Of a stretch of DNA of 37,833 nt, positions 2,293-10,956 are shown in pieces. The DNA is taken from the NCBI GenBank assembly GCA_016212705.1, contig JACREU010000120.1:1-37833 (forward strand). Direction: 5' to 3'. This DNA comes from Deltaproteobacteria bacterium. Its GTDB lineage: Bacteria; Desulfobacterota; GWC2-55-46. How positions within the stretch are numbered: the first letter of the stretch is position 1; each line of letters begins with the position of its first letter. The translations under genes were made by a program, and so were the position numbers. The notes beneath the pieces are model-generated. The model had not been told where the DNA came from. It made no database searches and saw nothing but the letters and a program-made list of their open reading frames with translations.

Positions 2293-2775
2293 ATGCCTCA
2301 GAGTTCTTTCGTGATGTTCGAGGAGGAGTACCGCGAGATCACCGCCGCGGTCGAAAAGCTCCTCAGGGAATCCAACGCCAAGTGCGTCTACCTTGTAGAC
2401 AAGGACGGACAGCTCATCTCGTCGAGCGGGGACACGAAGGACATAGACGCGACATCGCTCGCCTCTCTCACCGCCGGGAACATCGCGGCGACCGGCGGGC
2501 TCGCCAAGCTCATAGGGGAGAAGGAGTTTTCGATCCTCTTCCACGAAGGGGAGCGCGACAACCTCCACATCTCGGTCGTGGGCCAGAGGGTCATCCTCCT
2601 CGTCATATTCGATAAGAGGTCCTCGCTCGGGCTCGTGAGGCTCCGGGTGAAAAAGGCGAGCGAGGAGCTCGGCAGGTCCATACAGAAGCTCCTGGACAGG
2701 ATGGCCGCCGACGTGGACAAGGAGAACCTCCTTAAGGAGATTACGGACGACGATATCGAGAGGCTCTTCCATTGA
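2293..2775 (+). CDS. Roadblock/LC7 domain protein, MglB-like GTPase-activating partner
   Basis: 160 aa with CVYLVDKDGQLISSSGD...SLASLTAGNIAATGGLAKLIGE..., a roadblock/LC7 fold pattern. Directly precedes an MglA-like GTPase. Confidence 0.85.
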   Translation: MPQSSFVMFEEEYREITAAVEKLLRESNAKCVYLVDKDGQLISSSGDTKDIDATSLASLTAGNIAATGGLAKLIGEKEFSILFHEGERDNLHISVVGQRVILLVIFDKRSSLGLVRLRVKKASEELGRSIQKLLDRMAADVDKENLLKEITDDDIERLFH

Positions 2776-2944
2776 GGGCCGGCCTTAAGTCCTTTTCTTA
2801 AATAAGCCAGTCAAATATAACCGGGCCAGGAGAGCGGCGCAGGGCGGACCCCCGGCGTTCGTCTCATCCGGCCCGCATCCTTAGCCGCGCGTTGAAAGAA
2901 AGCGCCGGACCGCCCCGCGGCCGTGCATAACCCGAAACCAAACA

Positions 2945-3059
2945 GCGATCCATGGATGGATCGCCAAATTGTGAGATCAAATCGAACAATTTGTAAGGCT
3001 TGGCCGAATTTACTTCGGCCAAGCCGTAGCGGAAAAAGCCATGGACGGACTTTTTCCGC
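2945..3059. repeat. Array of four consecutive perfect hairpins immediately 5' of mglA
   Basis: Stems: 2945-2964 (GCGATCCA/TGGATCGC), 2965-2993 (CAAATTGT/ACAATTTG), 2997-3025 (GGCTTGGCCGAA/TTCGGCCAAGCC), 3029-3059 (GCGGAAAAAG/CTTTTTCCGC). Confidence 0.9.
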
Positions 3060-3067
3060 ACCTTAAG

Positions 3068-3655
3068 ATGTCATTCATAAACTACTCCTCAAGGGAAATA
3101 AACTGCAAGATCGTTTACTACGGGCCTGGCCTTTGCGGCAAGACCACGAACCTGCAGTTCATCTACAGGAAGACCAGGCCGGAGGCGAAGGGGAAGATGA
3201 TAACCCTCGCGACCGAAACGGAGCGGACGCTTTTTTTCGACTTCCTGCCGCTATCGCTCGGCGACATCAAGGGCTTCAAGACCCGCTTCCACCTCTATAC
3301 GGTGCCGGGGCAGATATTCTACGACGCGTCCCGCAAACTCATATTGAAGGGCGTTGACGGCATAGTCTTCGTAGCGGACTCGCAGGTCGAGAGGATGGAC
3401 GCAAACATCGAGTCCTTCGACAACATGAAGATAAACCTCGAGGAGCAGGGTTACAGCTTGAGCGAAATACCCTATGTGGTGCAGTACAACAAGAGGGACC
3501 TCCCGAACATCGTCCCGGTCTCCGAGCTTAAAAAGATGCTGAACTCGAACGGCATCCCGGACTTCGAGGCCGTCGCTAGCGACGGCCTCGGGGTGTTTGA
3601 GACGCTCAAGGCCATCGTAAAGCTCGTCCTCATAGAGCTTAAAAAAGGGGCTTAA
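3068..3655 (+). CDS. MglA-like Ras-superfamily small GTPase
   Basis: SFINYSSREINCKIVYYGPGLCGKTTNLQFIY (P-loop GPGLCGKT) and VVQYNKRDLP (NKxD). The ORF track starts at 3041, but MSFINYS at 3068 is the more conventional start. Confidence 0.9.
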   Translation: MSFINYSSREINCKIVYYGPGLCGKTTNLQFIYRKTRPEAKGKMITLATETERTLFFDFLPLSLGDIKGFKTRFHLYTVPGQIFYDASRKLILKGVDGIVFVADSQVERMDANIESFDNMKINLEEQGYSLSEIPYVVQYNKRDLPNIVPVSELKKMLNSNGIPDFEAVASDGLGVFETLKAIVKLVLIELKKGA

Positions 3656-9402: not shown

Positions 9403-10956
9403 ATGATCGAAGACATAAAGGACATAGCCGAAGAGGAAGACTCCGAAGAGAACGGTCTCGAGCTCGACGAGGAAGAGATCGAGGAAGACGTCTCCGTTGA
9501 GCCTTCCGAGGAGCCCCGGCCTTCGGATTACGAGCACGCGCCGAGCGCGCTCGCCGACCCGGTAAAGGCGTACCTCCGGGAGATGGGGGCGGTCTTTCTC
9601 CTTTCAAGGGATGAGGAGGTGGGGCTTGCCAAGAGGATAGAGGAAGGCAAGCTCGCCATCACGAGGGAGTTCCTCGGCTCGAATATCATTATCGAAGAGC
9701 TCAAGAGCCTTGAGGCCCGCCTCTCAGAGAGGAGGGGGGGCGAAGAGGTCCTCGGCTTCGACGACGACGAGGGCTTTCTTACAGAGGACGAACAGGACCT
9801 CCGGGAGGTATTGGGCGAGATAAACGAGGCCGTAAAACTCTTCTCCAGGTCCTCGAACGCAAGGTACGCGGCCAAGGACGAGGCGAAGCTCGTAAAGGTA
9901 CTCCTCGATATCGAGAAGCGGGCCAATATCTGCGAGAGGACTATCGAGAGGCTCAAGAAAAGGGTCAACGAGATACGGAGGCAGAGGAAGAAGAAGGCCG
10001 CCGTGGAAAAGGCGCTCGGCATGACCGAGCGGGAGATATTGAAGGCGGCGGCGGACATCGCGAAGGGGAAGGAGCGCGCGCTCTTGGCGCGCGCCGGCGC
10101 ATTCGACGCGGGCCTTAAGGAGATAGAGTCTCTGAACGCCGAAATAGCCTCGCTCGAAGAGAGGAGCGGCCTCGACTACCACGGCCTGAGCGCCATGGTC
10201 AGGTCACTTTCCGTCTGGATAGGGCAGGTGGAGGCCGCCAAGGAAAAGCTCATAAAGGCCAACCTGCGCCTCGTTGTAAGCATCGCCCGCCGGTACACGA
10301 ACAGGGGCCTGCAGTTTCTCGACCTCGTCCAGGAGGGCAACATCGGCCTCATGAGGGCGGTCGAGAAGTTCGAGTACAGGAGGGGGTACAAGTTCTCGAC
10401 ATACGCGACCTGGTGGATACGCCAGGCGATATCGCGCTCCATAGCCGACCAGGCGCGGACCATACGCATCCCCGTCCACATGATAGAGACGATAAACAAG
10501 CTCGTCCGCATATCCCACTACCTCGTGCAGGATACCGGCAAGGAGCCGACGCCCGAGGAGCTCGCCGAGAAGATGAGCCTCCCCATAGACAAGATAAGAA
10601 AGATAATGAAGATAGCCAAGGAGCCGATATCCCTTGAGACGCCGGTGGGGGAGGACGGCGACAGCATGCTCGGCGACTTCATCGAGGACAAGGAGGCGGC
10701 GGTCCCGCACGACGAGATGATCTCGAACGACCTTACCGGCCACATGAACGAGGTGCTCTCCACCCTCTCCCCGAGGGAGGAGAAGGTCCTGCGCATGAGG
10801 TTCGGCATCGGCGAGAATAAGGACCACACGCTCGAAGAGGTCGGCGAGTACTTCAACGTGACGAGGGAGCGCATACGCCAGATAGAGGCGAAGGCGCTCC
10901 GTAAGCTCAGGCACCCGAAGAGGTGCAAGAAGCTCAAGACCTTCTCGGAGAGGTGA
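9403..10956 (+). CDS. rpoD: Primary RNA polymerase sigma factor (sigma-70)
   Basis: Region 2: [59 protein letters not shown]. Region 4: [46 protein letters not shown] 9403 is preferred over TTG 9391. Confidence 0.95.

Follow-up and report, generated by a model that had tools for sequence, protein, structure and literature searches.

A hairpin array upstream of mglA in a Deltaproteobacteria bacterium is very probably a truncated copy of a mobile element with IS5-type ends

ERIC, BOX, RUP, and Correia repeats are short, structured, interspersed repeats, and the element analyzed here is another, a likeness of description rather than of sequence. REP and BIME repeats consist of 20–40 bp palindromes with an unpaired GTAG/CGTC tag and are associated with RAYT transposases (PMC3733652). 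The QMITEs of Coxiella burnetii have 7–9 bp target duplications and 23–29 bp inverted repeats, and their 5′-truncated copies, which lack ends and duplications, resemble REPs (reviewed in PMC10969869). Chunjie, a 235 bp MITE of Geobacter uraniireducens, is inserted into an operon and has many size variants (PMC10969869). Insertion sequences of the IS5 family have YTAR as their published target duplication (PMC10359306).

A hairpin array directly upstream of mglA was analyzed in a 37,833-nucleotide contig of a Deltaproteobacteria bacterium, referred to as the window. The array is very probably the truncated remnant of a non-autonomous transposable element (MITE) of about 155 bp with IS5-type ends. 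Like REPs, the element is a many-copy extragenic palindrome, and its truncated copy resembles one, but a 20–40 bp unit, an unpaired GTAG/CGTC tag, and RAYT association do not describe it. The copy at mglA is end-less and REP-looking in the manner of truncated QMITEs and shares their strong stem-loop folding, whereas the dimensions of QMITE duplications and inverted repeats differ. Chunjie is likewise an operon insertion with size variants but differs in length; QMITEs and Chunjie were both compared by description, not by sequence. With IS5-family MITEs the element shares CAGGxTGYTGAAAAA-type ends, a 4-bp YTAR duplication, a length of about 155 bp, intergenic placement, and no conserved ORF was seen in it. 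It differs from them in an interior that is a chain of hairpins, conserved in number and order across phyla but not in the stems, and no intact parental insertion sequence with matching ends was detected in the host family.

Hairpins in the mglB-mglA spacer

A preliminary description of this DNA had reported four perfect hairpins with stems of 8, 8, 12, and 10 bp at positions 2945–3059, and a scan of the window together with shuffled controls bears this out. The hairpins are adjacent, with linkers of 0, 3, and 3 nt and loops of 4, 13, 5, and 11 nt in order. They form the densest hairpin cluster of the 37.8-kb window (4 within 120 nt), and the densest cluster in each of 30 dinucleotide-preserving shuffles of the whole window held 1 or 2 hairpins per 120 nt. 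The fold energy of positions 2776–3085 corresponds to z = −5.56, and none of 100 shuffles folded equally well. The CCATGGAYGG core attributed to hairpins 1 and 4 is real, with 2 matches against 0.08 expected by chance. The last stem lies 8 nt before the ATG at 3068 and an in-frame ATG stands at 3041, both as described. Position 3068 is the preferred mglA start because MglA of 34 relatives aligns nearly always from its M1; mglA orthologues in relatives are 78–97% identical. The mglB product matches NF052242 (MglB) below the cut-off of that model in addition to the match in Table 1.

The absence of a clear Shine-Dalgarno sequence before mglA was also correctly noted, but the array is not its cause, since most array-less relatives, including the empty-site congener, have no clear one either. 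In array-less relatives the mglA ATG is often preceded by just an A-rich run, and the missing Shine-Dalgarno sequence is general in the host family.

Table 1. Positions of the array, its junctions, and the flanking genes in the window
Feature	Position	Strand	Basis and details
mglB (Roadblock/LC7, MglB-like)	2293..2775	+	PF03259, E=2.6e-15
Left junction	2934..2944	+	Hairpin A and left terminal repeat missing; alignment of G000, G001, G003, and G004
Hairpin 1 (hairpin B of full element)	2945..2964	+	GCGATCCA TGGA TGGATCGC; perfect 8-bp stem
Hairpin 2 (hairpin C)	2965..2993	+	CAAATTGT...ACAATTTG; perfect 8-bp stem; aligned with C100 copy
Hairpin 3 (hairpin D)	2997..3025	+	GGCTTGGCCGAA TTTAC TTCGGCCAAGCC; perfect 12-bp stem
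Hairpin 4 (hairpin E with subterminal inverted repeat)	3029..3059	+	GCGGAAAAAG...CTTTTTCCGC; perfect 10-bp stem
Decayed right terminus	3060..3067	+	ACC TTAA G versus consensus ATCCTG plus target duplication NTAG; aligned to full copies
mglA (MglA-like small GTPase)	3068..3655	+	ORF; Arf/Ras-like matches

A dispersed element with IS5-type ends

The compound repeat cassette envisaged in the preliminary description has further copies in both the host genome and its relatives. The full element is about 155 bp long and consists of five hairpins in a row between imperfect inverted ends, CAGGGTGTTGAAAAA...TTTTTCAACATCCTG. Among the matches listed, the host genome (G000) carries one full copy at C100:13696–13850 (85% identical to the 127-base query) and a partial copy on C27. 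The C100 copy reveals a fifth hairpin (A) ahead of the four seen in the window, together with the outer ends. With the C100 copy as query, at least 26 of 59 relatives carry matches, and three genomes of one genus, one of them a single contig, have at least 45–54 raw matches each, fragments and short end matches included (both counts among the matches listed). A scan of species genomes with the right-end hairpin located over 100 stretches, which belong to Sedimenticola and further Gammaproteobacteria and to one MAG each of Nitrospirae and Desulfarculus. The host-family version is rare elsewhere in the phylum, with 11 of 395 genomes among the matches listed, five of them from the host family. 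Searches of plasmid and phage records for the element, of viral contigs with the full right end, and of literature text for the end sequences returned no match; in Rfam the window had no match at the gathering score and the C100 element none at E≤1.

The many dispersed copies carry no coding gene, and full copies have the terminal inverted repeats. Long ORFs are overlapped by 22 of 77 copies, compared with 75% of random windows. The four arrangements of neighboring genes around copies occur 18, 16, 10, and 7 times, with no preferred one. This intergenic, orientation-free placement fits an inserted element tolerated between genes rather than one dedicated to regulation or termination. Insertion beside gene ends may be helped by the two stop codons, TAA and TAG, that YTAR includes.

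A second short repeat family at L079–L084, L089–L092, and L094 (G009, G018, and G024) has the same right end, GCAGATGGACTTTTTCAGCAGCCTGTTAG, and a different interior (..GAGCTTTTTGAGCAGCCTG, ATGCGAGGCG); at several loci the two ends are about 100 bp apart. In the gammaproteobacterial MAG VBWC, near-identical copies at L101, L114, L149, and L150 have matching CTAG/CTAG or TTAG/TTAG flanks, which suggest recent spread; in this assembly the third and fourth hairpins are interrupted by runs of N.

Target duplication was assessed in 79 oriented copies taken from Gammaproteobacteria, Nitrospirae, and Desulfarculus. The left and right 4-mers are identical in 42 of them, where 16 are expected, and none of 2000 shuffles reached this value. 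Non-standard flank pairs agree as well (ATAA/ATAA, CCAG/CCAG, and six CTAA/CTAA). The C100 site is empty in the congener G001, which reads GGGATTTTAA|AGGCTATTTC, and likewise in G002; the occupied allele of the host genome reads GGGATTTCAG-[element]-TTAG-AGGCTATTTC. Together, the matching 4-mers and the empty site indicate that the element duplicates a 4-bp YTAR target.

The same ends occur on transposase genes. Viral contigs were scanned for the short end pattern plus YTAR, and this yielded IS5 elements: those with ends CTAR-CAGGxTGYTGAAAAA...CTAG encode IS5-family transposases. The transposases at L222 and L204 score 291 and 266 bits against NCBIfam transpos_IS5_4 (NF033581; cut-off 140), those at L222, L223, and L204 all match PF05598 and PF01609, and L222 is flanked by CTAG/CTAG. 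A copy-rich, class-level relative (G058) contains a damaged IS5-type relic (L200:949–1807, that is, G058:C173:58964–59822) with ends TTAG-CAGTTTGCGGAAAAA and CTAG-CAGTTTGCTGAAAAA. The element therefore has the ends and YTAR duplication found on IS5-family transposase genes. Putative viral contigs (IMG/VR) also carry short elements, about 150 bp long, whose ends are YTAR-CAGGCTGCTGAAAAA (L221:669–825 and L230:3582–3749 and 10677–10844).

No match to DUF772 (PF05598) or DDE_Tnp_1 (PF01609) was found in the host genome or in the copy-rich genomes G009, G018, and G024, and the few transposase matches elsewhere in the host family lack ends of this type, so the mobilizer was not seen there. Movement in trans by an IS5-type transposase is therefore putative, and the family may now be orphaned in the host lineage, its mobilizer missing or lost. 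Candidate autonomous elements, taken as two terminal inverted repeat pairs 0.5–1.5 kb apart, were rejected because they enclose unrelated genes or a second short repeat.

The window copy is incomplete. It starts at hairpin B, its hairpin 1 aligning to positions 27–46 of the C100 copy, and it has neither hairpin A nor either outer end; the terminal inverted repeats are thus not kept. Its right end has decayed to ACCTTAAG and adjoins the mglA start. Because both outer termini are missing, a target duplication of its own is not demonstrable there, and TTAA at 3063–3066 is a putative right target duplicate. Hairpin E ends in the variant TGCGGAAAAA, whereas the usual end is TGTTGAAAAA. This variant is also present in the copies G004:C39:7192 and G004:C43 and in the IS5-type relic of G058, so the GCGG/CCGC pairs of the window need not have arisen in place. 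The former copy (G004:C39:7192–7310) lies upstream of a possible ORF starting ATGTCCTCGTACCTG.

The proposed history starts from a full element, which inserts at YTAR and duplicates those 4 bp. In the host genus, an ancestral or exchanged copy would have landed in the mglB-mglA spacer immediately ahead of the mglA start, after which its hairpin A and outer ends would have decayed. The elements were probably moved by an IS5-type transposase supplied in trans, their arms would stay complementary through replication template switching, selection on the hairpins, or both, and the mglA copy presumably has no dedicated regulatory role.

The array beside mglA in related genomes

Among the mglA loci read, the array lies upstream of mglA in G000, G001, and G004 only. 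It is absent from the congeners G002 and G003, from G006, and from the other relatives whose spacer was read, and is not conserved with mglA across relatives. G003 is the congener closest at this locus (L241); its spacer is identical to that of the window at 161 of 166 positions, lacks the array, and reads ccgaaaccaa-aagATG. The preliminary description had offered a cis-acting element controlling mglA as one origin of the array, which does not agree with its absence at mglA in G003 and the rest of the family, or with copies that sit between unrelated genes without orientation bias.

Comparison with G004 gives a different picture. The array is identical at 125 of 126 positions (window 2942–3067 versus L243), whereas 4-fold sites of G000 and G004 are 72% identical in mglA and 65% in mglB, and the adjacent spacer is about 78% identical. 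Conservation so far above the neutral neighbors is not predicted by a plain dead insertion. It could reflect selection or exchange between the lineages; a G004-like tract was looked for further into mglA, with no sign of one. Given the conservation of the array despite diverged neutral flanks, later co-option may have occurred.

The array may thus have begun as a MITE and now act in cis on mglA, for instance as an RNA structure that controls translation or stability separately from mglB. Besides the G004 identity, the array is kept in all three carriers, its end lies 8 nt from the start codon, and the differences between G000 and G001 include paired changes such as GCGATCC/GGATCGC versus GCAATCC/GGATTGC. 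Against this, G003 lacks the array with the frame and flanks otherwise intact, G002, G006, and the rest of the family lack it too, and the missing Shine-Dalgarno sequence is lineage-wide. Exchange between lineages would also explain the G000/G004 identity, and G001, which is closer to G004 by its flanks, has 11 differences from the G004 array in 125 positions; constraint is therefore uneven. We consider present-day function as a cis-element unlikely; a role of the array in mglA control is possible but unsupported.

Pairing maintained in the hairpin chain

The origin of the array as a mobile-element remnant is ordinary; what is extraordinary is the amount of structure maintained in its family. 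The unusual feature is the succession of five hairpins, in each of which the two arms stay complementary as the sequence changes. Standard pairs make up 97.5% of the pair cells in 65 full-length copies, double changes occur in 15 of 41 pairs, and 115 cells are changed on both sides; kinship among the copies inflates these figures. None of 500 shuffles reached these values, and pairing falls to about half when the partner is slid by one column. The compensatory changes that the preliminary description had proposed to look for are therefore many. Hairpin D has the most double changes of the five helices, and its loop core GCCGAATTYACTTCGGC is common to the window copy, the family copies, and the Desulfarculus copies.

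The base flanking the element serves as a control free of inheritance through the element. In 61 of 65 copies the base immediately outside forms a pair with the hairpin A interior (44 expected; 0 of 5000), and in 57 of 65 so does the next flank base (49 expected). In 9 of 57 copies the left duplicate has a last base other than G; seven of these nine retain the final G of the right duplicate, which suggests a joint change of the left arm and the interior once the element was in place. Insertion guided by pairing between an interior CTAA and the flank was considered and rejected: the two duplicates match each other (position 1, 43 of 57; 26 expected), and in other lineages pairing between flank and interior is not the rule, which makes changes after insertion the better fit. 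Replication template switching is a known route to the creation and repair of hairpin arms (PMC8794818). Either template switching or selection for structure may be the source of the compensatory changes.

The chain recurs in distant hosts. Representatives from Sedimenticola, a Nitrospirae MAG, and a gammaproteobacterial MAG each fold into five consecutive hairpins. In these elements the last hairpin is nearly that of the host family, but the majority of the other stems are different. The Desulfarculus and host-family elements have in common the last hairpin and the apical part of D. A tentative reading, on balance doubtful, is that these elements are a widespread, multi-phylum class whose transposition or survival depends on the folded five-hairpin chain, the stems being rewritten by lineage with pairing kept and the target base beside the first hairpin co-evolving. 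If so, the elements would be natural archives of mutation by template switching, or of selection on single-strand structure in a DNA transposon.

Another reading would make the element a structured selfish element that needs a folded single strand, DNA or RNA, for its propagation, the IS5-like ends being only part of the process. The shared five-hairpin order with largely different stems, the pairing statistics of the 65 copies, and the lack of a detected IS5 transposase in several copy-rich hosts all favor such a requirement. However, DDE transposition fully explains the 4-bp duplication and the ends. Template switching is enough by itself to preserve and rewrite stems (PMC8794818), and the fact that the flanking duplicated base is paired speaks for changes after insertion. 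This reading is quite unlikely.

Mobilization as a REP/BIME array by a REP-associated tyrosine transposase (RAYT), close to the REP/BIME-like label first given to the array, is highly improbable. GTAG stands directly before hairpin E of the window, and 28 of 65 copies have it there, but the tag is not conserved. A 4-bp direct target duplication contradicts this mode of movement, and the unit of about 155 bp with inverted ends and the IS5 genes that carry those ends also speak against it. A RAYT/REP origin was rejected in a search of 16 genomes for Y1_Tnp, in which single weak matches appeared in G009, G024, and G028 and no match in the host genome, G002, G015, G017, G018, G022, or G029, several copy-rich relatives among them. 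Chance or local tandem duplication, to which the CCATGGAYGG shared by two hairpins might point, is refuted by the shuffles and by the identical hairpin order in dozens of copies, in agreement with the earlier judgment that the array is not a simple tandem duplication.

The mobile-element reading of the array puts a repeat family that can be tested in place of an attractive but unsupported idea, that of an RNA switch built into mglA. Since the outer target copy is paired with the interior of the element, dozens of independent insertions are available in which compensatory changes arose after insertion. With them one can ask directly whether such changes require selection or whether template switching alone suffices. 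The family is also a warning that intergenic hairpins which covary in genomes of this kind are not necessarily functional RNAs.
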